Source of the DNA: a virus
Direction: 5' to 3' (one strand)
Length of the DNA: 25,116 nucleotides
Virus record (IMG/VR): IMGVR_UViG_3300046513_000239
Coordinates: 1 to 25,116 of that record
Both the position numbers and the translations under genes were made by a program. Under the pieces are notes generated by a model. The model was given only the letters and a program-made list of their open reading frames with translations, made no database searches and was not told the DNA's origin. Each line of letters starts with the position of its first letter. The stretch's first letter is position 1. Below, piece by piece: positions 224 through 14,943 of the stretch.

Positions 224-424
224 TTACCCGTTTGCCCGACTTGCAGCGATGCATTCCTCTTGCCAGCGCGCCACGTCGGCGGAATCCCAAGCGATCGCGC
301 GCGGCCCGAGGTGGATTGGAGCAGGGAAGGCGCCAGCTTTAACCCTGCGGAGGATGGTGCTGCGCGATTGGCCAGTGGCCTCGATCACGGCGGGCAGGCG
401 GAGAAATTTTTTGGTCATGGTCAT
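224..424 (-). CDS. AlpA-family excisionase-like regulator
   Basis: This 66-residue protein is almost entirely a MerR-type winged-helix domain of the AlpA family. It shows the pattern RLPAV-ATGQSRSTILRRVKAG-FP-P-HLGPRAIAW--ADV-RW, with the recognition helix around residues 18-30. AlpA proteins bind DNA and act as excisionases or transcriptional activators of prophage integrases. The start overlaps the stop of the upstream MazG-like gene (ATGA), and an ATG two codons further in could also be used. It is the last gene before the attachment region, where lambda-like phages carry xis. The cognate integrase is not next to it. Confidence 0.85.
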   Translation of the reverse strand: MTMTKKFLRLPAVIEATGQSRSTILRRVKAGAFPAPIHLGPRAIAWDSADVARWQEECIAASRANG

Positions 425-4861: not shown

Positions 4862-5385
4862 GCCGCCGCCTTGATGGCTCGATGCGCCGACTTCGCCGCG
4901 TTGTACTCGCTACCCAGGATTTCCTGCATGACCGGCGCCAGCTTCGCGCCAGTTGCCACGTAGATGCAGCCGTTGTGCTGGAACATGGCGAATCCGCAGA
5001 AGAACAGGTTGCCCCAATCAGTGCCCATGGCGGTCAGCACCGGTTCCAGATCTGCTTTCGCGATAGGGAATCGCGCCTGCCAGCCCGCCAGCAACTCTGC
5101 AAGCTCCGCCCTTTGTTCCTTAGTGGCGGATTTGATGGACGTGCGCGGACGCTGCATGCCTGCGGACTTCGGGTCAGGCTTCGTCCACAACGGATCATTT
5201 TTTTCGGGGTGGAAGCACAGGCCCGCTATGCTGTAGCCGTGAAGATCAGCGCGCGCTAACAGCGTGCCGCCGTAGTGCGCAGCAAACTCGGCGCCTGCCT
5301 TGCGCACTTCGGCCACATGCTCGTCGTAGATGGCCATCGCGGCAAGTGCCGCCGCGTCATTGGTCTTGTAGAAGGTGGTGCTCAT
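4858..5385 (-). CDS. Phage protein of unknown function downstream of rdgC
   Basis: This 175-residue protein starts at an ATGA overlap with the rdgC stop. It has an Ala-rich helical N-terminus, a middle segment with YSIAGLCFHPEKND, a basic linker, then KEQRAELAELLAGWQARF and a hydrophobic C-terminal block, NLFFCGFAMFQHNGCIYV. No active-site motif is recognised. Tight coupling to rdgC suggests co-expression, perhaps in recombination or replication management; that is inference from position. Confidence 0.7.
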   Translation of the reverse strand: MSTTFYKTNDAAALAAMAIYDEHVAEVRKAGAEFAAHYGGTLLARADLHGYSIAGLCFHPEKNDPLWTKPDPKSAGMQRPRTSIKSATKEQRAELAELLAGWQARFPIAKADLEPVLTAMGTDWGNLFFCGFAMFQHNGCIYVATGAKLAPVMQEILGSEYNAAKSAHRAIKAAA

Positions 5386-6653
5386 GCTGTCGCTCCCGGC
5401 GCCGCCGCCAAGTTGCGATCACCGACAACTGCGCCTACCGCACCATCCTCGCTCGCATCTTCCATGTCGACGTAGGCGGCCAGCAGCTGCATCTGGCGGT
5501 TGGTGTCGTATGTCGCCGTGCATAGGCTCGTTAATGCGCCCAGGTCGCTAACGCCGCGCTTGGCAGCTTCCGCCTTGATCTCAGCGCGCAATTCGGCCAT
5601 GTGCGCGGAAAAGGTGGCGCCCAGGAGCGTCTTGGCGGCCGTATGTGCCTCGTACATTTTGGCCGCCACTTCCACGGTCCGGCGCGCCTTGCCAGCGGTG
5701 CCGCCCAGTGCCAGCAACGTTTCGCCGCGCGCTACGGGCGCGGGCTTCATCGGTGCATCGCCCTCAGCAGGGCCGCCCAGCGCCTCAACCACATCGGCCA
5801 GCATCTTGTTCAGCTCGCCGGTCATCAGCATGAAGTCGCTGTCGAAGCGCTCGTCGTCGTTGCGGGTGCTCGCCTCGGTTTCCTTGAGTACGTCCAGCGC
5901 CTTGATGCTCTTGATGGCCAGGCTCTCGTCCAACACGAAGCTGATCTTCGATTCCCAGGTCATGGCCAGGCGCGTGCACTGCTTTCCGGCGGCGATATGG
6001 CGGCCGAGTTCTTCGGCTTCCAGCGTGGGGCGCTTCCACTGCACGGTGGCCTTGCTTTCGCCAGTCGCCTGCAGCGTGGCGTCCATGTCGACCGTGAAGC
6101 CGGCGGGCGCCTCGTCCGATTGCAGCCATTCAGTCATCACGCCCACCGGCGAGCGCTGCACGCGCAGGCTTTCCAGCGGCATGCGGTCGACCGCCTTGAG
6201 CAGCAGCTTGATTACTTCATCGGCCTTCGAGGGGCTGGCGGCGTCTACGCAGAGCCAGCCGTGCACAGGGTCGATCCAGACGTTGGTGGTACTGGCGACA
6301 CTGAACGCGCGCGGCAGCAGCTCGTCGGCGACGCGCTCCTTAATCTCCTTCATGGCCTTCTTGCCGGGTGCGAAACCTTGCTGCTCCTCCAGTTCCGCAG
6401 CGCGGGCCTTGGTCACCTGGTTGATGACGGTGGCGGGCAGCAGCTTCTTCTCGGCCTGCAGCTGCAGCAGCCACTGGCGGTTGATGACGTGGACCAGCTC
6501 GCCGGCCGGGCGCGGCGCGGCCCAGCCCTGGCGCAGCAGTTCGTCGCTGCTGGCGGGCGTGAAGGTGTGGGCCGCCAGCGCCTCGATCATCTGCTCGGCG
6601 GTGAATGCCCAGCCAGCGGGCAGGCGGTAAAGTTGTGCGTTTTTGAAGAACAT
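5382..6653 (-). CDS. rdgC: RdgC recombination-associated protein (phage copy, C-terminally extended)
   Basis: Residues 1 to about 300 follow the RdgC family from the start: MFFKNAQLYRLPAGW, then FTPASSDELLRQGW, LPRAFSV, WIDPVHGWLCVDAAS, and FDSDFMLMTGELNKML. RdgC proteins form ring dimers on duplex DNA and restrain RecA filament formation. Cellular RdgC is about 300 residues; this one has about 120 extra residues, Ala-rich and helical, at the C-terminus. The ribosome site AGGGAG lies inside the end of the reverse transcriptase gene and the two genes are only three bases apart, so they are co-transcribed. Phage-encoded RdgC is known in several betaproteobacterial prophages. A link to DGR homing is possible but unproven. 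Confidence 0.92.
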   Translation of the reverse strand: MFFKNAQLYRLPAGWAFTAEQMIEALAAHTFTPASSDELLRQGWAAPRPAGELVHVINRQWLLQLQAEKKLLPATVINQVTKARAAELEEQQGFAPGKKAMKEIKERVADELLPRAFSVASTTNVWIDPVHGWLCVDAASPSKADEVIKLLLKAVDRMPLESLRVQRSPVGVMTEWLQSDEAPAGFTVDMDATLQATGESKATVQWKRPTLEAEELGRHIAAGKQCTRLAMTWESKISFVLDESLAIKSIKALDVLKETEASTRNDDERFDSDFMLMTGELNKMLADVVEALGGPAEGDAPMKPAPVARGETLLALGGTAGKARRTVEVAAKMYEAHTAAKTLLGATFSAHMAELRAEIKAEAAKRGVSDLGALTSLCTATYDTNRQMQLLAAYVDMEDASEDGAVGAVVGDRNLAAAPGATA

Positions 6654-6656
6654 CGT

Positions 6657-7634
6657 CTATCTCCCTGTATTGGTGGAGCCGGTATGGCTGAACATTGCTT
6701 TGTAGGAGGTGAGCGCCTGGCTGCGGTCGTAGCCGCCCACCTCATGCTGGCGCAGGCGCTGGTGGTACCGGCGCCGGCCGTAGGCGCCCACGGAGATATG
6801 GTTTGGCCAGACGATGTAGCCGAGGAAGGGCACGCCGTCGGCCACCGGCGCCACGCGCACCTTTTTCGGGTGGATGGTCAGGCCATCAGCTGCGAGTCGC
6901 TCAACGATGGCCGCGCTGATCGCCATCAGCCGCTCGCGGGATTCGCCGAGGATCACCATGTCGTCCACGTAACGGACGTAATAGCGCACGCGCAGCACTT
7001 CCTTCAGCCAGTGGTCGAAATCGTTCAAGTAGACGTTTGCGAAGAGTTGGCTGGGCAAATTCCCGATAGGCATTCCCTTGTCGCGAGTGCGCCGGTAGGC
7101 GCTCGTGGTCGGGAATAGGTGATCATGCTCGTCGCCGGAGCGGAACGAATCCACCAGATTCACCAGCAGCGTGCGAATGTCCTGGTCGCCGATGTAGCGC
7201 AGGATCCTCGCCTTCAAGAGCGAGTGGTTCACCGAATAGAAATACTTCGAGATATCCAGCTGCAGCACCCATTTAGCATCCTGCGCGCGGGCAAAGTCAG
7301 CCAGGCGTCGGACCGCAGCGTGCGTGCCACGACCAGGCAAGTTGCCGTAGGTGTCCGCGATGAAGCGGGGCTGCCAGATCGGCAGCATGTAGTCGTAGAG
7401 CATCCAGTGCACGATCCGATCCTTCATCGGCGCGTCGACGACATGCCTGAATTTCTTCTCACGGATGACGAACGTCTTGTACGGCCCGAAGGTGTAGCGG
7501 CGCTCGCGCAGCTGCTGCTGGATGTTGGCCAAGTAGCGAAGCGGGTCGTCGCCGAATCGCTGCACGCGCGGGCTCTTGGACTTGTTCTTCTTTGCTTTCA
7601 GCCAGCATCCGAACAGGCTGGCTAGGTCGGTCAT
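6657..7634 (-). CDS. DGR reverse transcriptase
   Basis: The 325-residue product has the group-II-like RT core in order: LQLDISKYFYSVNH (motif A Asp about 127), GMPIGNLPSQLFANVYLN (about 188-204), YVRYVDDMVIL with catalytic YVDD (about 222-225), and LTIHPKKVR followed by FLGYIV. The IGNLPSQ signature marks diversity-generating retroelement RTs, as opposed to the QG form of other RTs. The enzyme copies template-repeat RNA with errors at adenines. I start at 7634; the frame stays open upstream to 7946 only because the template repeat lacks stops, and that extension has no RT character. No strong ribosome site is seen. No HNH or maturase domain is present. Confidence 0.95.
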   Translation of the reverse strand: MTDLASLFGCWLKAKKNKSKSPRVQRFGDDPLRYLANIQQQLRERRYTFGPYKTFVIREKKFRHVVDAPMKDRIVHWMLYDYMLPIWQPRFIADTYGNLPGRGTHAAVRRLADFARAQDAKWVLQLDISKYFYSVNHSLLKARILRYIGDQDIRTLLVNLVDSFRSGDEHDHLFPTTSAYRRTRDKGMPIGNLPSQLFANVYLNDFDHWLKEVLRVRYYVRYVDDMVILGESRERLMAISAAIVERLAADGLTIHPKKVRVAPVADGVPFLGYIVWPNHISVGAYGRRRYHQRLRQHEVGGYDRSQALTSYKAMFSHTGSTNTGR

Positions 7635-7804
7635 GCGGTGGAACGGTGCTGGCGCTGGGCCGCTTTCCGCTGCGGCGCTCGGAAGCCCCGCAGCGGTCTT
7701 CGGTTTGGCGCAGCGCCGTGCTTTCGGGTTTATCCCAGGAGCTGATCGACCAAGAATTGGCTTTCCGTGAGCAGGCTCAGCGTCTAAGCATGTAATTTTT
7801 GGGT
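7635..7804 (-). ncRNA. TR-RT spacer, probable part of the DGR template RNA
   Basis: This 170-base stretch between the template repeat and the RT start has no convincing gene. In studied DGRs the template RNA extends past the TR into the spacer, which binds the RT-Avd complex and primes cDNA synthesis. I assign that role by position only; I did not identify a specific fold. Confidence 0.5.
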
Positions 7805-7919
7805 CAGCGGAAGCCGACATTGTCGTTGGCGTTGGACGGATTCGCGTTGTTGAGCCTGAACACGCCGGCGTTGTCGCCGTCGTTCCAGTAGCCGCCGCGG
7901 ATGAGCGCATTGCCGGACC
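7805..7919 (-). repeat. DGR template repeat (TR)
   Basis: These 115 bp match three downstream-of-gene copies (8894-9008, 9874-9988, 11740-11854) at every position except template adenines of the minus strand. Read in the target frame it would encode nine Asn codons (AAC/AAT) in the pattern GGYWNDGDNAGVF-LNNANPSNANDNVGFR and then a TGA stop, the adenine-loaded design of DGR templates. Of its 24 coding-strand adenines, 22 are replaced in at least one VR. It lies 23 bases after the avd-like gene and 170 bases before the RT, the usual avd-TR-RT order. Confidence 0.97.
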
Positions 7920-7942
7920 TACCAGACCACCCCCTTCGTTGA

Positions 7943-8797
7943 TCATGATGCTGCCTTTCCGGCGCGCAGCAGGCCGCCGACCAGGCGACCAAGCTCAACG
8001 GCTAAGCCAGCGCGGTGATCGAACGCAAGTTTGAGCTTGCTTAGCCGTGGAGCCTGGGTCAGGTAGTGCTTGAGCAGATCAATGTCGGCCGAGATGGCGT
8101 GCAGCACCGTCCGGCGGTCCGTCGCCGTCCCGTAGGCGTACACGTTGCCCATGACACGCGCCATGCACGCGCGTACGTTCTCGCCAAAAGTGACGCGCAG
8201 GTCGCGCGGCATCTTGATGATGTCGTGCAGTAGCTGCGTGTCCAGATCCTGGGCTTGCGTTTTCAATTTGAAGCCGGCGCTGTCGGGGTTGGCCAGCAGC
8301 TGCTTCGTTGCGGCCTGGTTGACCTCGCCCCGCGCGCGCAGGTCTGCGATCACCTGCAGAACGATCTTGTCGGAGACTGCATTGAGCACCGAAGTATTGG
8401 CCCCGGCCTGATCGGACACGTACAGCGTGTAGCCATCGGTGCGATTGCCCAGGTAGACCACGTATGGAATCTGAAACTCCTCGATCATGGACCAGAGCCG
8501 CTTTTTGAAATTCCCGGCGGGGAAACCCACTCGGATGTGTGGCGCGTCGCTGGTATTGACCAATTTCAACCGGTAGTTCTTGAGGGTGTTAAGTGCGTGC
8601 GCGGTGCGGTCGTAGCCGTGCAGGAAGCGGCCGACTTGCACCAGTACGAGGTGTCCAGGATGCTTCTGTTCCAACTGGGCCGAGACGTCGGCCATCGGAT
8701 CTTCCTGACCGAGACCGACCTCAATTCCACGATATGCGCGAATCGAGAACTGGCCCATCTCGGCCTGTGTCGGTACTTGCGATTCGGTTTTTGGCAT
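7943..8797 (-). CDS. avd: DGR accessory protein: MutS-domain-I-like region fused to Avd-like helical bundle
   Basis: The 284-residue protein has two parts. Residues about 41-135 resemble MutS domain I (mismatch-recognition domain): HPGHLVLVQVGRFLHGYD parallels the HPxxLLLFQVGDFYE entry of MutS, followed by a GFPAGNFKKRLWSMIE segment. Residues about 185-280 form a basic helical bundle ending ELGRLVGGLLRAGK, matching Avd, the pentameric accessory variability determinant that binds the RT. Avd alone is about 125 residues, so this is a fusion. MutS-like (MSL) accessory proteins have been noted near some DGRs. The ribosome site AGGACG precedes the ATG. The gene ends 23 bases before the TR. Confidence 0.85.
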   Translation of the reverse strand: MPKTESQVPTQAEMGQFSIRAYRGIEVGLGQEDPMADVSAQLEQKHPGHLVLVQVGRFLHGYDRTAHALNTLKNYRLKLVNTSDAPHIRVGFPAGNFKKRLWSMIEEFQIPYVVYLGNRTDGYTLYVSDQAGANTSVLNAVSDKIVLQVIADLRARGEVNQAATKQLLANPDSAGFKLKTQAQDLDTQLLHDIIKMPRDLRVTFGENVRACMARVMGNVYAYGTATDRRTVLHAISADIDLLKHYLTQAPRLSKLKLAFDHRAGLAVELGRLVGGLLRAGKAAS

Positions 8798-8830
8798 TTT
8801 CGTCCTGCCTATTCAGTATTGAGAGGCCCG

Positions 8831-8849
8831 ATCACCGCTACGCAGTGAC
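8831..8849 (-). promoter_or_regulatory. DGR hairpin downstream of VR1
   Basis: On the coding strand the arms GTCACTGC and GCGGTGAT pair over eight positions (two G-T) around a 3-nt loop, GTA. It lies 44 bases past the end of VR1. Hairpins of this size just after the VR promote target recognition in the Bordetella phage DGR; equivalents follow the other two VRs here. Confidence 0.75.
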
Positions 8850-8881
8850 CGGGGACCAGTGTCCTGTGACCAGAGACCTAC
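8847..8881 (-). repeat. GACCNNN heptad array after VR1 (5 units)
   Basis: On the plus strand five consecutive 7-bp units read gaccggg, gaccagt, gtcctgt, gaccaga, gacctac. They fill the gap between the VR1 hairpin and the target gene's last codons and include its stop codon. Matching arrays occur after VR2 and VR3 but not beside the TR. Confidence 0.75.
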
Positions 8882-9789
8882 AGGGTTTTGGTGCAGCGGA
8901 AGCCGACACAGCCGTAGGCGTAGGACGGATGCGCGTGGTTGAGCCCGAACACGCCGGCGTAGACGCCGCCGTTCCAGCAGCCGCCGCGGAAGAGCGCACG
9001 GCCGGACCAGTCGCGGGCCCCGTCAGGACGCCAGCCCATGCCGAATTGGCGCGAAGGGTAGGGCGCTGTGGCCAGGGAAACCGAGTCGGCAGCGATCGTG
9101 CGATCAACGACGCCGGCGGCATCACCTTGGACATCGTCGAAAATCCAGCTGTAGACGTTGCCGGCGAAGTGGTAGATTCGCTCACCATTCGACAGCACGT
9201 GCCAGCTGCGCTCTTCTGGATCTGACGAGATGTAGGAGCCGGGCTGCCCTTCGCTGACCGTACCCGTGTGCAGGCCTTGGAATACCTTGCCGCCCCCGAC
9301 GGCGCCACCGGTCCAGTTCTCAGCTTGTTGCACGATGTTGTGGGCGATGGCCAGCGCTTGCGATTCAGTGAGAAGGCCCAGGCCTGCCGCCGAGCATGCC
9401 GCCCGGGCATCGTGGTAGGAGATGTCCACCCATGGCGCTCCTTTCTCGTCGATCATCAGGGTTTCCATAGGCCCCTTGCTTGCCGCGTACGTGCCGACAC
9501 CAAAGGCAGGGACGATGAGGCCGCTCGGCAAAGTGGTTTCTGGCACGGTCGTGAACTGCCAAGTGCTGGACAGGATGCCGGTCGCCTTGGCTACGAGTTC
9601 TTCGCACAGTTGCGGGTATTCTTCTTTGCAGGACTCCGCATATGCAAGTAGTGCAGGGTAGGAGTGCCTGTCATGAGTCAGGTCCAGTACGAAGTAATCG
9701 CACGCCTCGTGCTTCTCGCCGGCGGCGTGGCGGCCGTCGGCCCGCGTGACGTTGAATTTCTGATAGATGCCTTTGTCGCGAGTGTTCAT
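8878..9789 (-). CDS. DGR target protein 3 (FGE/C-type-lectin-like) with extra N-terminal domain
   Basis: The 303-residue protein is modular. Residues 1 to about 75 contain the compact unit KFNVTRADGRHAAGEKHEAC, YFVLDLTHD and ALLAYAESC, which I know as a free-standing small bacterial/phage protein of unknown function. Residues about 80-303 are a formylglycine-generating-enzyme/C-type-lectin-like target domain (ETTLP..., WVDISYHDARAACSAAG, QAENWTGGAVG, AGNVYSW, GMGWRPDGARDWSG) ending in VR1 and GFRC. The frame continues upstream to 10014 only by crossing VR2; the ATG at 9789 has GGAGC upstream and is the true start. No signal peptide is seen, so the protein is cytoplasmic or virion-bound. Confidence 0.92.
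   Translation of the reverse strand: MNTRDKGIYQKFNVTRADGRHAAGEKHEACDYFVLDLTHDRHSYPALLAYAESCKEEYPQLCEELVAKATGILSSTWQFTTVPETTLPSGLIVPAFGVGTYAASKGPMETLMIDEKGAPWVDISYHDARAACSAAGLGLLTESQALAIAHNIVQQAENWTGGAVGGGKVFQGLHTGTVSEGQPGSYISSDPEERSWHVLSNGERIYHFAGNVYSWIFDDVQGDAAGVVDRTIAADSVSLATAPYPSRQFGMGWRPDGARDWSGRALFRGGCWNGGVYAGVFGLNHAHPSYAYGCVGFRCTKTL
8894..9008 (-). repeat. DGR variable repeat VR1
   Basis: The 115-bp copy of the TR at the 3' end of target gene 3 shows 15 substitutions, all at TR adenines of the coding strand and none elsewhere. The encoded segment reads WSGRALFRGGCWNGGVY followed by AGVFGLNHAHPSYAYGCVGFR. Variable residues include two Cys. Confidence 0.97.
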
Positions 9790-9819
9790 CGCATGCTCCG
9801 AATCATTAGAAGAAGTGCG

Positions 9820-9838
9820 GTCACCGCTTTGCGGCGAC
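9820..9838 (-). promoter_or_regulatory. DGR hairpin downstream of VR2
   Basis: On the coding strand GTCGCCGC and GCGGTGAC pair over eight positions (one G-T) around the loop AAA. It begins 35 bases past VR2, matching the hairpins after VR1 and VR3 in core (CCGC/GCGG) and loop size. Confidence 0.78.
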
Positions 9839-9863
9839 CCGAGACCAGGGATCAGAGACCGAT
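9836..9863 (-). repeat. GACCNNN heptad array after VR2 (4 units)
   Basis: Four plus-strand units read gacccga, gaccagg, gatcaga, gaccgat. They connect the hairpin with VR2 and contain the target stop codon. The first unit overlaps the outer hairpin arm by three bases. Confidence 0.7.
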
Positions 9864-10628
9864 GGGTTGGGTGCAGCGGAAGCCGACATTGTCGTAGGCG
9901 TCGGACGGATACGCGCTGCCGAGCCCGAACACGCCGGCGTGGTCGCCGTCGCTCCAGTAGCCGCCGCGGACGAGCGCATAGCCGGACCAGCCGCTTCCGG
10001 CGCGCGGCCGCCAACCCATGCCGCGCTCCATGGAGGCATACGGCGCAGTGGCGATCGATGGTGAGTCGGCAGCAAAGGCCTGCGTGGTCAGACCGTTGGC
10101 GTCACCTTGGACATCGTCGAAGACCCAGGTTTCGGCGTTGCCGGCGGCATCCATCACAGCTTCGCCGTTAGACAAGTAGAAGGTACGACGTTCGGAAGGA
10201 TCGCTCGACACGAAGTCGCCGGCATACGGCTCGTTGACGTCGTCCAGGTCGAGGTGCAGACCTTGGAACATGTCGCCGTCGCCGACGGCGCCGCTGATCC
10301 AGTTTGCATCCTGCTGGAACAGGTTGAACGCAAGGGCCAGCGCCTGGGTCTCGGTGATCAGTGCGAAGCCGGCGTCGGCACAGGCCTTGCGCGCGTCGGC
10401 GTAATTGATCCCGACCCAGGGCTTGCCGGTGGCACTTACGATGGCTTTGCCGTCCGCGCCCTTCGAGCACAGGTACTGACCGACTTGGAATGCTGGCACG
10501 ACGATACTGGGGCGCGCGACAATACCGTCGACGATCACGCACGGCAGCGTGGTCTCAGGTACCGTGATGAAGAGGTTATTCGCTACTGCCGCTACTGCGT
10601 GTTGCTCGGTGTGGGTGGCTGTGTTCAT
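9852..10628 (-). CDS. DGR target protein 2 (FGE/C-type-lectin-like, minimal form)
   Basis: This 258-residue protein is nearly all target domain: only about 20 residues precede TVPETTLP. It shares with the other targets the PAFQVGQYLCSKG strand, WVGINYADARKACADAGF, DANWISGAVGDGDMFQGLH, and AGNAETWVFDDVQGD, and ends in VR2 with GFRCTQ. Such C-type-lectin-like folds tolerate extreme variation in surface loops and display binding sites in phage DGR targets. The start has TAGGAGC upstream. It lies 62 bases before target gene 3. No signal peptide or tail-fibre domain is visible, so the ligand and location are unknown. Confidence 0.92.
   Translation of the reverse strand: MNTATHTEQHAVAAVANNLFITVPETTLPCVIVDGIVARPSIVVPAFQVGQYLCSKGADGKAIVSATGKPWVGINYADARKACADAGFALITETQALALAFNLFQQDANWISGAVGDGDMFQGLHLDLDDVNEPYAGDFVSSDPSERRTFYLSNGEAVMDAAGNAETWVFDDVQGDANGLTTQAFAADSPSIATAPYASMERGMGWRPRAGSGWSGYALVRGGYWSDGDHAGVFGLGSAYPSDAYDNVGFRCTQPIGL
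9874..9988 (-). repeat. DGR variable repeat VR2
   Basis: The 115-bp copy of the TR at the 3' end of target gene 2 has 11 substitutions, all at coding-strand template adenines. The encoded segment is WSGYALVRGGYWSDGDH then AGVFGLGSAYPSDAYDNVGFR. It is the VR closest to the TR. Confidence 0.97.
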
Positions 10629-10670
10629 GATGCTCCTAAGTTGAGTGTGAACTTCAGTTGGTACTGCTGC

Positions 10671-10871
10671 TTACTTCCCTGGTGAACGCGGCACGCGGCG
10701 CGCGTCGGCCAGCATGCGATCGACGACAGCTTGGAGGCGCTCGCGCTCCTCGGCCGCAGTCTCATTGGCGCGGAAACTCTTGCTGGACCGCAGGCGCGAC
10801 CGCGTTCGGCACTGGCGCTCCGCTGCGCGATCCAGGCGCGCCAGTCGTTGCTCCTCTGTTTCGGTTGGCAT
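10671..10871 (-). CDS. Small charged helical protein
   Basis: The 66-residue product starts MPTETEEQRLARLDRAAERQ. It is very rich in Arg, Glu and Ala with a heptad-like pattern, likely one long helix or a coiled coil. GGAGGG precedes the ATG closely, which favours this start. It overlaps the end of the 71-residue frame upstream in a different reading frame, and target gene 2 begins about 42 bases downstream. Function unknown. Confidence 0.6.
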   Translation of the reverse strand: MPTETEEQRLARLDRAAERQCRTRSRLRSSKSFRANETAAEERERLQAVVDRMLADARRVPRSPGK

Positions 10872-10977
10872 GCACCCTCCGCAGCAATTTAGCGGCCCGC
10901 GCCGTGGCGCTGGCCAGTCGTATCGAATGGCTGAATGTGTGGCCCGCGCGCCGTGCGGACCAGACCGCGCGGATCAT
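10762..10977 (-). CDS. Small basic protein, unknown function
   Basis: This frame gives 71 residues from MIRAVWSARRAGHTF, starting at an ATGA overlap with the membrane-protein gene upstream; an ATG three codons earlier is also available. The first half is basic and helical, the second half Gly/Ala/Pro-rich. Its last 110 bases overlap the next gene in another frame, unusual here, so its full length is doubtful. I include it because of the coupled start. Confidence 0.45.
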   Translation of the reverse strand: MIRAVWSARRAGHTFSHSIRLASATARAAKLLRRVHANRNRGATTGAPGSRSGAPVPNAVAPAVQQEFPRQ

Positions 10978-11108
10978 GGATGCCATGCCGCGCTCACTTC
11001 CTGCAGGGCGACCAGCACCTGCTGCTGCGCCTCTGCATCGCTGCGCGCGGCGTCGATATAGAACAGGGCCAGCACGCCGACCACGGCGATTGCGCGGAGC
11101 CAGCTCAT
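10974..11108 (-). CDS. Very small membrane protein
   Basis: The 44-residue protein has an N-terminal hydrophobic segment, WLRAIAVVGVLALFYI (about residues 3-18), followed by an Ala/Gln-rich helix. It could be a signal-anchor protein resembling small phage spanin- or holin-associated peptides. Starts and stops overlap neighbouring frames as ATGA on both sides. The role is not established. Confidence 0.6.
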   Translation of the reverse strand: MSWLRAIAVVGVLALFYIDAARSDAEAQQQVLVALQEVSAAWHP

Positions 11109-11248
11109 GGCAGGCTCGCCACTGCCGCGCCGGCTACATCGGCCAGCCATTCAGCCAGCGCGACCAGCATCACCACGGCCACGACCAGGGTGCCGCCGTT
11201 GCGCTCGCACCAGCCGCCCGGCGCGCCAAACAGGACGCGCGCGTTCAC
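11105..11248 (-). CDS. Very small membrane protein
   Basis: This 47-residue frame starts with GTG overlapping the previous stop (GTGA). It has one membrane segment, LVVAVVMLVALAEWLADVAG (about residues 20-39), after a short Gly/Cys-containing head. It ends in an ATGA overlap with the next small membrane protein gene. Two consecutive single-pass proteins could form a pair, but no known lysis family is recognised. Confidence 0.55.
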   Translation of the reverse strand: MNARVLFGAPGGWCERNGGTLVVAVVMLVALAEWLADVAGAAVASLP

Positions 11249-11475
11249 GCTGCCGCTCCCTGCCGCCCCACCAGCTGCGTTGCGCCGCTGCGAAAGTGCA
11301 CATCGGCGCGCTGCGCACCTGCAGGGATGTCCTCCGGCGCATCCAGACTGCCGTCGTTCAAGACGGACTCGAAGCCGCTATCTTGGTAGCGGAAATGCAG
11401 CTGTTCGCTCACGCGCCGTCGGGAGTTCCTTCCGCCGGTGGCGAGGCGCAGCTTTGAAGCGTGATTTGCGTGCAT
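11245..11475 (-). CDS. Small protein of unknown function
   Basis: The 76-residue product starts MHANHASKLRLATGGRN. AGGAG lies about six to seven bases before the ATG at 11475; a GTG one codon earlier is also open. The first 25 residues are basic. The remainder has strand-like segments (QLHFRYQDSGFESVL, ADVHFRSGATQLV). No domain is recognised. Downstream coupling is by GTGA overlap. Confidence 0.55.
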   Translation of the reverse strand: MHANHASKLRLATGGRNSRRRVSEQLHFRYQDSGFESVLNDGSLDAPEDIPAGAQRADVHFRSGATQLVGRQGAAA

Positions 11476-11490
11476 CACGATCTCCTGTTG

Positions 11491-11658
11491 CTAGCGTGAG
11501 CGAACGGTGGGCGTGCCGATCAGGCCCCAGCCAAGCTGGCGGCGGATTTCCTCGGGCGCCAACACTTTGTTTTCGGTTACGCGTGCAAGACGTTGTTGCC
11601 CCATCGTGTTGCGCACCAGGTGTTTGTCAGGGCGATTTGCTGTGGCTTGCTGTGTCAT
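11491..11658 (-). CDS. Small basic protein right after VR3 hairpin
   Basis: The 55-residue frame starts MTQQATANRPDKHLVRN, with GGAGATGG just upstream. It is basic, with a C-terminal segment LAPEEIRRQLGWGLIG that could be a helix. The stop is TAG. It begins 17 bases downstream of the VR3 hairpin, so its leader RNA carries the DGR heptads and hairpin. Function unknown. Confidence 0.55.
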   Translation of the reverse strand: MTQQATANRPDKHLVRNTMGQQRLARVTENKVLAPEEIRRQLGWGLIGTPTVRSR

Positions 11659-11675
11659 GACCATCTCCAAAAGTC

Positions 11676-11696
11676 GGCCGCCGCTGCGCGGTGGCC
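11676..11696 (-). promoter_or_regulatory. DGR hairpin downstream of VR3
   Basis: On the coding strand GGCCACCGC and GCGGCGGCC pair with one A-C mismatch around the loop GCA. It begins 43 bases past VR3. Core, loop size and distance match the VR1 and VR2 hairpins. Confidence 0.75.
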
Positions 11697-11727
11697 TGTT
11701 ACCAGTGACCGGGGACCAGAGACCTAC
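11693..11727 (-). repeat. GACCNNN heptad array after VR3 (5 units)
   Basis: Plus-strand units read ggcctgt, taccagt, gaccggg, gaccaga, gacctac. The last three equal units of the VR1 array but in a different combination. The array spans the target stop codon and joins the hairpin to VR3. Confidence 0.7.
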
Positions 11728-12623
11728 AGGGTTTTGGTGCAGCGGAAGCCGACAGGGTCGACGGCGTCGGACGGAAGCGCGTCGTTGAGCCCGAACACGC
11801 CGGCGTAGTCGCCGTCGTGCCAGTAGCCGCCGCGGATGAGCGCAGTGCCGGACCAGTCGCGGGCACCATCCGGGCGATAACCCATGCCCTTCGCACCGGA
11901 AGGGTAGGGCGCCGTAATCAGGGATGGCGAGTCGTCAGCGATGCGGGTGCACAGGCCATTGCTGTCCCCTTGGACGTCGTCGTAGACCGCGGTATAGATG
12001 TTGCCGGCCAGGCCGTAGACCTTCTCGCCATTGGCCAGCACGTGCCAGCTGCGTTCTTCTGGGTCGTCGCTCACGTAGTCAGCCGCTTGCGCGCTGCGCA
12101 CCGTGCCTTTGTGCAGGCCCTGGAACACTTTGCCCACGCCGACGGCGCCGCCGGTCCAGTTCTCGGCCTGCTGTACCACCTGCAGGCGGATGGCCAATTC
12201 CTGCGACTCGCGCGCCAACTGATAGCCGGCCGCCGCGCACGCAGCTGCAGCATCGTTGAAGCTGACGTTCACCCATGGCTTCGCCGAAGTGCTCAGCTGC
12301 AGCGCGCCGCTATCATCCTTCGACGCAGGGTACTTGGCGTACTTGAAAGCAGGGACGATGAGGCCATTCGGCAGCGTCGTCTCGGCCACAGTGACGAAAT
12401 GCTCTTCGGTCACCAGGCCCAGGCTGGACATCAGCGAGGGCGATCCGGACACGACGCGCTTCTCGGCGTCGAGAACGATCAAGTGCAGGCCGGAAGCGGA
12501 GTGGCGGAACTTGGTGAAGCCCTCCCAGGCGCTTTCAACGGCCAAGCCGGTGATATTGCGGTCATGCAGGCGCGCGGTGAACGTGCGCTCTTCGATCAGT
12601 TCCAGTGCTGCGGGTTGGTTCAT
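11724..12623 (-). CDS. DGR target protein 1 (FGE/C-type-lectin-like) with unique N-terminal domain
   Basis: The 299-residue protein starts MNQPAALELIEERTF, preceded by GGAG; an ATG four codons earlier lacks a good site. Residues 1 to about 80 are a domain not found in the other two targets (TARLHDRNITGLAVESAW, LHLIVLDAEKRVVSGS), which may be beta-rich. From VAETTLPNGLIVPAF onward it parallels target 3 closely (QAENWTGGAVGVGKVFQGLH, DPEERSWHVL, DDVQGD, PDGARDWSG) and ends in VR3 with GFRCTKTL. It is the target nearest the left promoter. No signal peptide is visible. Confidence 0.92.
   Translation of the reverse strand: MNQPAALELIEERTFTARLHDRNITGLAVESAWEGFTKFRHSASGLHLIVLDAEKRVVSGSPSLMSSLGLVTEEHFVTVAETTLPNGLIVPAFKYAKYPASKDDSGALQLSTSAKPWVNVSFNDAAAACAAAGYQLARESQELAIRLQVVQQAENWTGGAVGVGKVFQGLHKGTVRSAQAADYVSDDPEERSWHVLANGEKVYGLAGNIYTAVYDDVQGDSNGLCTRIADDSPSLITAPYPSGAKGMGYRPDGARDWSGTALIRGGYWHDGDYAGVFGLNDALPSDAVDPVGFRCTKTL
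11740..11854 (-). repeat. DGR variable repeat VR3
   Basis: The 115-bp copy of the TR at the end of target gene 1 has 12 substitutions, all at coding-strand template adenines. It encodes WSGTALIRGGYWHDGDY then AGVFGLNDALPSDAVDPVGFR. It is the VR farthest from the TR, about 3.8 kb away. Confidence 0.97.
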
Positions 12624-12654
12624 CGTGAACTCCATCAGTGAGGGGTCTTGATTT

Positions 12655-12978
12655 CTACTTTTTCATTTCGCCTGCGGCGACCAGAGCCTCTTTCGCGAGG
12701 CGCACCAGCCGGTGCTGCCTGGAGGTTCCATTCACCTGCCAGAGCGTTTCCACCATCTGATCCCGGCCGTTTATCCCGCTAATCAGACACTCAGCAACCT
12801 GCATGCCCTTGGCCGAAAGCTTCGACTTTTTTGCCTGCTCAACCGTCAGGCCAAACTCAATGCCGAACAGATTTGCGATGGCCGTACCATTTGCGTCAAC
12901 AAGGAGGTGTGCATTGCTTCCATCGCTATATCCCTGCCTGACGGGAAGCGCTAATGCTGTGTTGCAGTTCGGTTTCAT
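12655..12978 (-). CDS. First gene of the left operon, unknown function
   Basis: The 107-residue protein starts MKPNCNTALALPVRQG, with GGAGG eight bases upstream; a start four codons earlier would swallow the ribosome site. It has segments LLVDANGTAIANLFGIEFG and QVAECLISGINGRDQMVETLW, ending in a basic helix. No known domain is recognised; it lacks the Arg-rich N-terminus of lambda N. It lies directly downstream of the operator-bearing left promoter and 31 bases ahead of target gene 1. Confidence 0.65.
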   Translation of the reverse strand: MKPNCNTALALPVRQGYSDGSNAHLLVDANGTAIANLFGIEFGLTVEQAKKSKLSAKGMQVAECLISGINGRDQMVETLWQVNGTSRQHRLVRLAKEALVAAGEMKK

Positions 12979-12990
12979 CCTTGCCTCCAA

Positions 12991-13005
12991 CCGCAGCTAC
13001 TGCGG
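12991..13005 (-). promoter_or_regulatory. Leader hairpin of left operon (boxB-like geometry)
   Basis: The leader between the left promoter and the first gene folds as CCGCAG/CTGCGG around a 3-nt loop, or equally as a 5-bp stem with a 5-nt loop, the lambda boxB shape. It sits eight bases before the ribosome site. It could be an antitermination or attenuation element; no N-like protein is identified. Confidence 0.4.
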
Positions 13006-13017
13006 CGATAAATGGAC

Positions 13018-13044
13018 TTTATACTAGAAAAACTAGTAATGCAA
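13018..13044 (-). promoter_or_regulatory. Putative left early promoter (PL-like)
   Basis: On the minus strand TTGCAT (13039-13044) and TATAAA (13018-13023) are separated by 15 bp, and operator 13022-13038 fills the spacer. A repressor there would block RNA polymerase. The short spacer makes the exact -10 uncertain. Confidence 0.6.
13022..13038. promoter_or_regulatory. Repressor operator OL1
   Basis: TACTAG AAAAA CTAGTA is a perfect 6-bp inverted repeat with an A5 spacer, the best match to the operators between the repressor and cro-like genes. Confidence 0.75.
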
Positions 13045-13056
13045 GAAAAAATAGTA
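13040..13056. promoter_or_regulatory. Repressor operator OL2
   Basis: TGCAAG AAAAA ATAGTA is a degenerate second copy, 18 bp from OL1 start to start. It covers the -35 box of the left promoter. Confidence 0.6.
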
Positions 13057-13138
13057 ATCTGATCGGGAGGGAGGTGCATATGCGTGAAACAGGGATGGGC
13101 TGGGTGAACAGAGAGGGCGGGAGTATGCCTTAGGATTT

Positions 13139-13155
13139 GATACCGTAGAGATACC
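13139..13155. promoter_or_regulatory. Direct repeats GATACC, possible RHH operator
   Basis: Two GATACC copies lie 11 bp apart (13139-13144 and 13150-13155), one helical turn, about 40 bp upstream of a ribbon-helix-helix gene. That spacing suits cooperative binding of RHH dimers. Confidence 0.4.
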
Positions 13156-13196
13156 AAAAGGCTCAACCGTGCGCCTGTGCCTTGCACAATTGCCGG

Positions 13197-13421
13197 ATGC
13201 AAAAAACCAACAAGAACAACCCAATCCCTATGACCCTGCGGCTACCGGTCGACTTGGTCGAACGCCTTGATGCCGCAGCAGAACAAAACGGAAGAACCCG
13301 TACAGCTGAGATCAGGGCGCGCCTGGAGCCGTCAGAGACGGAGCAACGCCTATCGGTGGTGGAGCGCGAGCTGCAAGAGATAAAAGGGATGTTGCGGAGG
13401 CTGCTGGATGCGGCTGGATAG
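13197..13421 (+). CDS. Arc-like ribbon-helix-helix regulator
   Basis: This 74-residue protein has the strand PIPMTLRLPVDLVERLDAAA then TRTAEIRARLE, the Arc/MetJ strand-helix-helix core (about residues 9-45). A C-terminal leucine-heptad helix follows (LSVVERELQEIKGMLRRLLD). Arc-type proteins bind operators as dimers of dimers. I start at the ATG 13197; an in-frame TTG five codons earlier is less likely. It lies between the OL and OR clusters, where lambda carries rex/cI accessory genes. GATACC repeats upstream may be its own operator. Confidence 0.8.
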   Translation: MQKTNKNNPIPMTLRLPVDLVERLDAAAEQNGRTRTAEIRARLEPSETEQRLSVVERELQEIKGMLRRLLDAAG

Positions 13422-13426
13422 GGCGG

Positions 13427-13448
13427 AAAAAAGCCCGGCGAACCGGGC
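13427..13448 (-). terminator. Rho-independent terminator, minus direction
   Basis: The stem GCCCGG/CCGGGC with a 4-base loop is followed on the minus strand by TTTTTT. It ends transcription of the minus-strand gene at 13508-13741; read on the plus strand it lacks a U-tract. Confidence 0.8.
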
Positions 13449-13507
13449 GTTGTATGAATGCGTGCAGAGAGGAAGTGCCAGCTGAGGGGCGGCTATTTGC
13501 GATCCAT

Positions 13508-13741
13508 CTATTGAGCGCCAGCACTCCGAGCGGCCAGTATGCCGCGATCAAATGCACTGGATGTTTGCTGCTCCGATTCTATGAATGCCCGCTCCGTAGG
13601 ATCGGCGTTATTCCAATAATTTACACCAGCCTGGAATTGCGCCTCTTGTCGAGCAGCTTTCCATTTCTTGATCGGCAACAGGACGGTGACCCAACTCGGT
13701 TGGGCGCGACTGGGCGCGGCGGTCCTTGCAACCTGTCTCAT
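13508..13741 (-). CDS. Small basic phage protein, unknown function
   Basis: The 77-residue product starts MRQVARTAAPSRAQPSW; GGAAGAG lies just upstream. It reads LLPIKKWKAARQEAQFQAG then an acidic helical C-terminal half (NNADPTERAFIESEQQT). The frame is open further upstream without a ribosome site. It is a single-gene unit with its own downstream terminator, facing away from the repressor region and possibly expressed in the lysogen. Function unknown. Confidence 0.6.
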   Translation of the reverse strand: MRQVARTAAPSRAQPSWVTVLLPIKKWKAARQEAQFQAGVNYWNNADPTERAFIESEQQTSSAFDRGILAARSAGAQ

Positions 13742-13956
13742 GGTCTCTTCCTTATTATGGATTTTGTACAACTCATAATAATGGAAAATTCCCATCGGAA
13801 ATCTATTGAATTGTTGCACTTTTACGGCCCCCAGTGCAAACGGTTAGCAAAGCGTTCGCGCGGCGGTGTGAGAATTGTGACAATTGGGTTTCAAAAAAGT
13901 AGGAGCAGATAAGCACTCTATTTCTTCATTTCGAATCGGTAACGGGGGTTATATTG
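13742..13956. other. AT-rich intergenic region with a short palindrome
   Basis: No gene is supported in these 215 bases. The region is clearly more AT-rich than its surroundings. It contains a perfect 13-bp palindrome AATTGTGACAATT (13873-13885), possibly an operator for the gene at 13957. Promoter boxes could not be assigned with confidence. Confidence 0.4.
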
Positions 13957-14172
13957 ATGCAATATTGGTTACGTTTCAGAAGGCATGCCGAAATGGAGAA
14001 TTTCCCGAAGTTGGAAGCAGCATATAGAGCCATGAGTAAGGAAAAGCGCCTAAGACTCATCGAGCTCGCCCTGTTATTCGCTGAGAAATGGCCCGTTACC
14101 CAGTTAGATAGCCAAGCGCATCCCCGGCGCGCTTCACACCTGCGTGTCGTCCACTCCAACGACACGCGCTAA
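13957..14172 (+). CDS. Small protein convergent with the repressor
   Basis: The 71-residue frame starts MQYWLRFRRHAEMENF, with a purine-rich GGGGG stretch about 10 bases upstream. It is basic and helical (LEAAYRAMSKEKRLRLIELALLFAEKW), with a less ordered tail. Its 3' end overlaps the end of the repressor gene by 39 bases on the opposite strand. No family is recognised; position suggests a lysogeny-associated gene. Confidence 0.5.
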   Translation: MQYWLRFRRHAEMENFPKLEAAYRAMSKEKRLRLIELALLFAEKWPVTQLDSQAHPRRASHLRVVHSNDTR

Positions 14173-14568
14173 TGGCCGCTTTTTCGTCGTGCTGGCCATC
14201 AACTTAATTTCTTCACGACCATCCTCGTAAGAGAGCCGGAACTGCTCCAACAATTCGCATTCTTCGGGGGTGTTGTACTGCAGAACCATGCGTGCGACCG
14301 GAGGGGCTTCCGGCACCGTATTTGGCGCTGGCAACTCTGCCGGATCATCAGCTGTACCTCGCCCAGTAACCAACCACTCAGTACTGCAGCGCAGCCCAGC
14401 AGCGGCAGCGGCCAAGTTGCTGCGATTGGGCGCAGTCCCATCCTCTTTTTCCCATAGCTGAATAGTCTGCCACGCAATCCTCTTGCCAGTGGCTTTGAAA
14501 ATAGCCTCGGAGAGCTTTACGAAGGAAAGCTCAAGCTGTGTTCGGCGTGCTTTTATTCGTTCGTGCAT
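14134..14568 (-). CDS. XRE-family phage repressor (CI-like, no S24 domain)
   Basis: The 144-residue protein has an N-terminal helix-turn-helix: SFVKLSEAIFKATGKRIAWQTIQLWEKEDG, then SNLAAAAAGLRCSTEWLVTG, the usual XRE/CI ending (about residues 1-75). A Pro-rich linker follows, then a short acidic C-terminal helix (EECELLEQFRLSYEDGREE). It lacks the LexA-like S24 self-cleavage domain, so induction must differ from lambda CI. Of two close ATGs I take 14568 because AGGGA is six bases upstream. It diverges from the cro-like gene and probably binds the TACTAG-N5-CTAGTA operators. Confidence 0.85.
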   Translation of the reverse strand: MHERIKARRTQLELSFVKLSEAIFKATGKRIAWQTIQLWEKEDGTAPNRSNLAAAAAGLRCSTEWLVTGRGTADDPAELPAPNTVPEAPPVARMVLQYNTPEECELLEQFRLSYEDGREEIKLMASTTKKRPLARVVGVDDTQV

Positions 14569-14580
14569 GTCCATTCCCTA

Positions 14581-14609
14581 ACTATGCCCGCTAGGTTTTC
14601 TTGTGCCAA
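14581..14609 (-). promoter_or_regulatory. Putative repressor-maintenance promoter (PRM-like)
   Basis: On the minus strand TTGGCA (14604-14609) and CATAGT (14581-14586) are 17 bp apart. Operator O3 occupies the spacer, allowing autoregulation of the repressor. The -10 is weak, as is usual for PRM. Confidence 0.55.
14589..14605. promoter_or_regulatory. Operator O3 (repressor side)
   Basis: CGCTAG GTTTT CTTGTG is a degenerate copy of the 17-bp operator lying within the repressor promoter. Confidence 0.55.
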
Positions 14610-14626
14610 TACAGATTTTTCTTGTA
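14610..14626. promoter_or_regulatory. Operator O2
   Basis: TACAGA TTTTT CTTGTA is the middle copy, 21 bp from O3 and 19 bp from O1 start to start. It covers the -35 side of both divergent promoters. Confidence 0.6.
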
Positions 14627-14649
14627 TCTGCTAGTTTTTCTAGTACAAT
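14622..14649 (+). promoter_or_regulatory. Putative right early promoter (PR-like)
   Basis: TTGTAT (14622-14627) and TACAAT (14644-14649) are 16 bp apart. The expected transcription start coincides with the ATG at 14656, so the mRNA would be leaderless or nearly so. Confidence 0.65.
14629..14645. promoter_or_regulatory. Operator O1 (cro-like side)
   Basis: TGCTAG TTTTT CTAGTA is a near-perfect palindrome and the closest relative of OL1. It lies between -35 and -10 of the rightward promoter. Confidence 0.72.
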
Positions 14650-14655
14650 CAGCGC

Positions 14656-14943
14656 ATGGATACCACCAAATCAAAAGCGGCTCTGACGCGTGCGATTGCG
14701 AAATGGACGACGCTCAAGGCGTTCGCCGCAGCGCTGGACGTCGAATACCAAACCGTCCAACAGTGGCTGAGGAATGGCGTTCCGGCCCCGTACTGCCCCC
14801 AGATTGAGGAAATGACTGGGGGCGAGTCGCGGTGCGAGGAGCTGAACGACTCGGTGAACTGGGCATATCTGCGCACCACCGCACCCCAATCTACCGCCGC
14901 CGCACCGGCCGCGCCCGACCAACTGGCCGCTGGACCGCCTTGA
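14656..14943 (+). CDS. Cro-like regulator, YdaS family
   Basis: This 95-residue protein matches the YdaS/Cro-like helix-turn-helix family. AFAAALDVEYQTVQQWLRNG gives the HTH (about residues 22-41), then VPAPYCPQIEEMTGG and CEELNDSVNWAYLR follow. The tail is Ala/Pro-rich and probably disordered. It is the first gene of the rightward early operon and should compete with the repressor for the three operators. Only six bases separate the -10 box from the ATG, and no ribosome site precedes it. Confidence 0.85.
   Translation: MDTTKSKAALTRAIAKWTTLKAFAAALDVEYQTVQQWLRNGVPAPYCPQIEEMTGGESRCEELNDSVNWAYLRTTAPQSTAAAPAAPDQLAAGPP

Follow-up and report, generated by a model that had tools for sequence, protein, structure and literature searches.

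Predicted lambda/P22-type operators in front of a diversity-generating retroelement operon in an IMG/VR virus fragment

What does the left operator of a lambda-like immunity region control, when the operon behind it encodes a diversity-generating retroelement (DGR)? This question is raised by a stretch of viral DNA of 25,116 nucleotides (IMG/VR record IMGVR_UViG_3300046513_000239, positions 1 to 25,116), the whole of which is referred to below as the window. An initial annotation, made from the sequence alone, described five 17-bp operators arranged as left (OL) and right (OR) operators around a short repressor gene; it left out the DGR operon behind OL, which is the most interesting part of the locus. 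We consider it highly probable, judging from sequence comparisons, that the five sites are operators of the lambda/P22 type and that OL controls a left promoter (PL) of the DGR operon, which would be kept silent in the lysogen. The OL/OR reading is supported and is ordinary in itself; the finding worth following is that OL heads the DGR operon, and that 29 modules with differing repressors retain this arrangement.

The five dyads are present where they had been placed (Table 1), and the spacing of 18 bp in OL and of 21 and 19 bp in OR agrees with the 18-21 bp given earlier. The proposed common sequence, TACTAG-N5-CTAGTA with an A/T-only spacer, held in part: it is exact at 13022, it has one mismatch at 14629, three at 13040, and four at both 14589 and 14610, and the spacer at 14589 is GTTTT. 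The ten half-sites of the five operators give the consensus TRCWAG (T in 8/10, R, C in 10/10, W, A in 9/10 and G in 8/10). Allowing up to three mismatches to TACTAG-N5-CTAGTA, five matches were found in the window versus 1.46 expected, and these include just three of the five proposed sites; with up to four mismatches there are 28 matches in the window, therefore the sites at 14589 and 14610 are not significant individually. The clustering is significant: none of 200 shuffles had three A/T-rich-spacer sites in a stretch of 60 bp. In a motif-blind search for paired dyads (later widened to dyads of even length), 13022, 13040, 14610 and 14629 rank first in the window, 14589 not being among them, and the window's pair score of 99 under the first scoring was reached in none of 490 shuffles of all loci (maximum 95). 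The degenerate motif TRCWAG-N5-CTWGYA is found at two exact places in the window and 15 times in approximately 50 Mb of nine betaproteobacterial genomes, where the same motif read backwards, used as a control, occurs 148 times.

The positions of the sites are those expected of OL and OR, the promoter elements lie inside the sites, and operator and repressor change together in relatives; all three support the reading. OR sits between the divergent repressor and Cro-like genes, and OL is at the head of the left operon. The initial annotation also held that the sites overlap the left, right and repressor promoters, and indeed -10 and -35 elements of PL and of the right promoter (PR), as well as elements of the repressor promoter (PRM), are located in or beside them. 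The PR -10 element is six bases from the cro ATG, thus the cro message may be leaderless; a PRM start at the A of the repressor ATG would also give a leaderless mRNA.

We regard the comparative result as the strongest evidence for the OL/OR reading. Relatives with a reverse transcriptase (RT) at least 59% identical to that of the window were collected from IMG/VR (43 loci, L005-L047) and GTDB (15 loci, L053-L067), 58 in total; their named hosts, taken from record titles, are betaproteobacteria. The comparison leaves out L068-L132 and L181 (an upstream piece of L010). Operators were found at the same two places in 28 relatives, most of them with an operator sequence of their own, and with the window this makes 29 modules. 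These 28 correspond to 34 of the 58 loci, six of which duplicate or nearly duplicate another; records apparently of one phage, e.g., L011/L057, L040/L066, L034/L061 and L036/L041, were counted once. No repressor was seen in the gene lists of L010, L025 and L026, and an operator scan of the distant-RT loci L048-L052 gave no convincing operators.

A closer comparison was performed in 19 modules, i.e., the window and 18 loci with a recognised repressor upstream of the DGR. When each OR was compared with every downstream region, the cognate OR-OL match was the best in 16 rows and 14 columns out of 19 each, and the three row ties involve a relative with a similar operator (L006/L020, and L059 with L058). 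OL encloses TTGAC in 13 modules and TTGCAT, TTGCCT, TTGATT or TTGATA in six, with a -10-like end ahead of the first gene. A third OR site is visible on reading in many modules. The OL-OR distance ranges from approximately 0.6 to 3.9 kb, so that no fixed loop length is kept; the initial annotation had suggested that the separation of 1.6 kb in the window could permit looping. For L042, the accepted pair (2318/4336) is not the top-scoring one, and the second OL site was read from the sequence. Some high-scoring quads in G+C-rich DNA (e.g., L011 4248/8366, L046 7875/9914 and L053 2110/3088) resemble variable-gene repeats or coding noise, and these were dropped by eye.

In these modules, the operator changes together with the repressor. 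The OL pair is unchanged base for base in L005; L006 and L043 have the same DGR operon (RT 93-95% identical), other repressors, and another motif at both OL and OR (TTTAAACATRGTGTTT in L006, GTTTAG-N6-CTAAAC in L043). Grouped at 80% identity, the promoter-proximal OL sites of the 19 modules form 16 groups, and the similarity of OL1 tracks the similarity of the first 75 residues of the repressor (r = 0.56, as high in none of 5000 permutations). The DNA-binding ends of the repressors of L006, with an S24 domain, and L020, without it, are 61% identical and the OL1 sites are identical; for L013 (with S24) and L046 (without) the corresponding values are 62% and 81%; L036 and L040 share a 144-residue repressor stretch that is 65% identical, and their operators differ. 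These three pairs indicate that the operator follows the DNA-binding end, while the S24 part comes and goes.

As a later test, we also fetched 11 pieces of upstream DNA for loci with no repressor in view and examined 10 of them; operators were found at both places in all 10 loci examined. It should be noted that the expectation was not written down before the DNA was fetched, and that the cases differ in how they were recognised: five automatically (L172, L173, L175, L176 and L177), three by a targeted search (L182/L039, L179/L032 and L180/L044), and two by reading the sequence (L174/L056 and L178/L022), which is a judgement rather than a score. In the latter two, targeted matches were not good or were only weak; the OR piece is cut short in L174/L056, and the motif is loose in L178/L022.

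The operon behind OL encodes a DGR: RT, Avd, the template repeat (TR), and variable repeats (VRs) with mismatches at template A. All named genes leftward of OL are on the minus strand, the DGR genes from OL to RT among them. The TR matches the ends of three variable genes, and 13/14, 13/14 and 16/17 mismatches are at template A. In comparisons with L005, L006 and L043 (for the third variable gene, with its nearest paralogue there), 12-21 of 28-29 template-A positions of the VRs are changed, and none of 94 other positions; the TR shares 123, 123 and 122 of its 123 bases with these loci. Since the VRs of relatives differ only at template A, the comparison indicates that this DGR is active in nature. 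Variable proteins 1 and 2 match only phrog_2889 (unknown) and phrog_9572 (FGE-like), and none of the 10 left-arm proteins scanned received a structural annotation. In the Avd fusion protein, approximately 170-190 residues precede the Avd domain; this N-terminal part has a sub-threshold match to MutS domain I in the L011 homologue (E = 0.048) and none in the window protein.

Table 1. Coordinates of operators, promoters, genes and repeats; positions are those of the window unless a relative is named.
Feature	Position	Strand	Description
OL1	13022..13038	-	TACTAGTTTTTCTAGTA on the transcribed strand; perfect dyad; last two bases start PL -10 (TATAAA)
OL2	13040..13056	-	TACTATTTTTTCTTGCA; weak PL -35 (TTGCAT or CTTGCA) from the end of the site
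OR3	14589..14605	+	CGCTAGGTTTTCTTGTG; inside PRM
OR2	14610..14626	+	TACAGATTTTTCTTGTA; adjoins PRM -35, overlaps weak PR -35 (TTGTAT)
OR1	14629..14645	+	TGCTAGTTTTTCTAGTA; overlaps at its end PR -10 TACAAT (14644-14649)
PRM-like promoter	14581..14609	-	TTGGCA-17-CATAGT; OR3 inside, OR2 beside -35
CI-type repressor	14134..14574	-	146 aa, or 144 aa if started at ATG 14568; N-terminus resembles P22 C2; no S24 match
Cro-like protein	14656..14943	+	YdaS/P22 Cro Pfam families; first gene of right operon
First PL-operon gene	12655..12975	-	106 aa, function unassigned; no match in L006 (variable protein first there)
Variable protein 1	11724..12635	-	FGE/C-type-lectin-like, below Pfam cut-off; VR1 11732-11854
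Variable protein 2	9852..10628	-	VR2 9867-9988
Variable protein 3	8878..9792	-	VR3 8886-9008
Avd fusion protein	7943..8797	-	284 aa; residues 192-278 bAvd-like (under Pfam cut-off); match to PHROGs Avd at 4e-6
TR of DGR	7797..7919	-	
DGR reverse transcriptase	6657..7865	-	RVT_1; coding start uncertain
RdgC-family recombination-associated protein	5382..6653	-	
Excisionase-like protein	224..424	-	PHROGs; far end of left arm, beside tRNA-Pro (25-101)
Ribbon-helix-helix (Arc/TraY-like) protein	13200..13421	+	between OL and repressor
Small conserved open reading frame	13508..13744	-	downstream of repressor; also in L005, L006, L043
GTGCAACAATT-N2-ATAG stretch	13803-13819; L006 5639-5655; L043 5081-5097	- (window)	

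We propose that OR1-OR3 would control PR (cro) and PRM (repressor), and that OL1-OL2 would control PL. PL, as the main promoter of the DGR, would drive a left operon composed mainly of the DGR (three variable proteins, Avd, TR and RT), then rdgC, with the excisionase gene at the end of the arm. In the lysogen, a repressor dimer on OL1/OL2 would cover the -35 and -10 elements of PL, and the DGR would be silent; upon infection or induction PL would open, and the variable proteins would be produced and mutagenised at an early stage, separately from the late tail genes, so that mutagenesis would be confined to the lytic phase. Because the left operon behind OL encodes a naturally active DGR, the repressor most likely holds the DGR off. 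According to excerpts from PMC12135933, silencing of a CI-like repressor in a DGR-bearing Bacteroides prophage increased expression of most phage genes and DGR activity.

The same excerpts describe DGR activity in uninduced hankyphage lysogens, where spontaneous virion production is also reported, and this activity could point to an alternative that we consider unlikely: the operators would be genuine, with the DGR running in lysogens from a constitutive or internal promoter and OL gating no more than the first genes or a superinfecting phage. Although the 5 kb between OL and RT would leave room for such a promoter, promoter-like sites in 5200-13100 are at the level of chance (one versus 1.3 expected), the DGR genes from OL to RT share one strand, and in L006 and L011 the gene of a variable protein follows OL directly, at a distance of 57-77 bp. 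We see very little chance that the left pair serves a rightward promoter, either of the ribbon-helix-helix gene or of a 17-codon open reading frame, rather than PL. Both lie just right of OL on the plus strand, and the short frame (13080-13133, part of the frame listed at 12954-13133) has a strong Shine-Dalgarno sequence (GGGAGGGAGGTGCATATG); however, L006 and L043 retain the OL pair with no match to the ribbon-helix-helix protein of the window, and the sites of relatives enclose -35 and -10 elements directed at the DGR operon. It is barely credible that the sites are chance A/T-rich repeats or functionless remnants of a dead immunity region: three sites are degenerate and one of 100 window shuffles reached the pair score under the second scoring, but the layout is the same in 28 relatives, OL is intact in L005, and the repressor and Cro reading frames are open in the window.

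Control of the DGR by OL, which we prefer, has to be weighed against several other points besides that shuffle result and the OL-RT distance, over which a consensus scan can miss promoters. The exact 17-mer of OL1 occurs once each in 38 IMG/VR stretches, including L005 (the only one of the 38 looked into), and is not rare there. The spacing of 18-21 bp in the window is tighter than the 24-26 bp in most relatives, which means that adjacent dimers would sit on different faces of the helix. PL and PR of the window are weak relative to the consensus (approximately 3/6 at -35, spacers of 15-17) and fall below the scan threshold, and the match for PRM has a frequency at the level of chance (one promoter-like site versus 1.6 expected in the scanned region). 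For most of the 19 modules, the sites were already known when the search regions were chosen; the modules were picked by eye, and the OL1 strings for the covariation test were likewise taken by reading the sequence. Among the 58 loci with a close RT, L005 contributes OL only and 23 were not assessed, most having little DNA upstream of RT. The window itself is a fragment of a virus.

The initial annotation noted that the repressor lacks an S24 cleavage domain and left its mode of inactivation open; searches of the Pfam/PHROGs type likewise gave no S24 match. The N-terminal domain aligns with the P22 C2 structures 1adr, 3jxb and 2r1j (phmmer E from 2.4e-4 to 2.9e-4), while no helix-turn-helix (HTH) match was found in Pfam at 0.01; an AlphaFold model made with no alignment was too poor to be used (pLDDT 46). 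Peptide patterns revealed no relatives of the window's repressor in viral or genome contigs, and there was no match at E 1e-6 among 399 genomes of the order, in a search run without a positive control; weak partial matches were found in 10 phage records. Therefore, operator conservation alongside a close relative of this repressor is covered by the OL of L005 only. S24 is present, according to Pfam, in eight of the 19 repressors (L006, L013, L018, L034, L036, L040, L058 and L063) and was not found in 11 (the window, L011, L020, L028, L042, L043, L046, L059, L062, L064 and L065); thus, repressors with no S24 domain are frequent here, and the domain is also absent from P2-type and other short repressors. 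Modules with and without S24 share one operator layout, which makes the mode of repressor switch-off look like an exchangeable part. There is no sign of a LexA box as an induction route in the window (four one-mismatch matches versus 7.1 expected), and an antirepressor as the means of inactivation would be a guess. Beside OL in L062 (5302-6233) there are an HTH-like gene and a gene that resembles, by eye only, an ImmA/IrrE metallopeptidase.

Two further observations concern the immunity region. The sequence GTGCAACAATT-N2-ATAG is common to three otherwise unlike immunity regions, where it is located upstream of the small open reading frame that is downstream of the repressor. The PL leader of the window (12973-13014) forms a hairpin, the 3' arm of which holds or touches the Shine-Dalgarno sequence of the first gene; similar hairpins are found in L006, L011, L013, L058 and L062, with z from -1.65 to -4.15 for the six leaders, which were chosen by eye from the 19. 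Translational control of the first gene by this hairpin is possible.

A second, distant DGR-type RT (32-36% identical) was found in the records of L024, L022 and L021 (L183, L184 and L185, respectively). The gene before it is tail-fibre-like in L184 and L185, tail genes are nearby in L183, and Avd and RT of the L184 element were confirmed by PHROGs. The location of the second DGRs near tail genes suggests that the DGR of the PL operon serves something other than tail tropism, though variable ends of both kinds match phrog_2889: it is also the family matched by the targets of the second DGRs of L183 and L184, and thus cannot tell tail from non-tail. Relatives of RecT (7), YqaJ (12) or RdgC (15) are encoded on the RT strand, before or after RT, in 22 of the 56 loci (duplicates counted) that have an RT frame; Pfam confirmed RecT in L015, L060 and L065, and YqaJ in L015, L018, L028 and L060. 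Tentatively, and at less than even odds, we suggest a group of betaproteobacterial prophages with a repressor-gated "early DGR" in the PL operon, which would diversify non-virion proteins at the lysogeny-lysis switch, separately from tail-fibre DGRs, and which may use RecT/YqaJ or RdgC of the same arm for insertion of mutagenised cDNA. If true, this would be a natural version of recombineering with an RT and an annealase. Excerpts from PMC12875486 on the DGR of the Bordetella phage BPP-1 in E. coli tie cDNA insertion to replication direction and to ExoI; in the same excerpts, two results speak against the recombineering idea, namely that ExoI inhibits the reconstituted DGR with no need for its nuclease activity, and that a dnaG mutation said to raise recombineering left editing unchanged. 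Annealase help is thus a testable idea rather than a result.

The same source calls the natural switch-on of DGRs an "exciting frontier" (PMC12875486, excerpts), and whether stronger control of RT activity explains the less steady change in non-structural targets is described in PMC8144416 as still to be determined. An operator pair in front of a DGR, changing together with the repressor over 29 modules, offers a directly testable answer on switch-on, and cultured hosts exist for such modules (e.g., Duganella sp. BJB476, Thauera butanivorans NBRC 103042 and Methylotenera oryzisoli). The DGR targets here are not recognisable tail fibres. Among the matches listed in the open-licence PMC literature, no paper joins a DGR with PL or with operators.

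The DGR resembles that of BPP-1 in the order variable gene-avd-TR-RT and, as described in papers, in A-specific mutagenesis. The BPP-1 cassette is located between tail genes and the endolysin and has one tail target; in contrast, the three targets in the window lie behind an early-type promoter and none is recognised as a tail protein, and no tail target in a late operon was found there. The Bacteroides hankyphage is alike in having a prophage DGR under a CI-like repressor, the silencing of which raises phage expression and DGR activity, and unlike in being a transposable (Mu-like) phage whose DGR targets a tail fibre; the excerpts from PMC12135933 make no mention of an operator at the head of the DGR operon. 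As for the immunity region, the divergent repressor and Cro genes of the window flank a common operator cluster, the same operators are clustered again at the left early promoter, and between relatives the operator changes together with the repressor; a self-cleavable repressor of the S24 type was not found. Likeness to lambda includes 17-bp dyads in operator clusters on both sides of the repressor, OR2 next to PRM -35 and OR3 inside PRM, and a left arm that ends in an excisionase-like gene beside a tRNA gene, some relatives also having recombination genes on the same strand. Unlike lambda, the window has two OL sites rather than three, tighter spacing, a repressor with no S24 domain, and a left operon dominated by the DGR. 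The repressor shares a homologous N-terminal HTH domain with P22 C2, and the A/T-rich operator centre would fit indirect readout, as for P22 C2; it differs in its length of 146 aa, with no S24-type C-terminal domain found, and in the 17-bp TRCWAG dyads. Taken as a whole, the region appears to work like an immunity region of the lambda/P22 type, with a short repressor.

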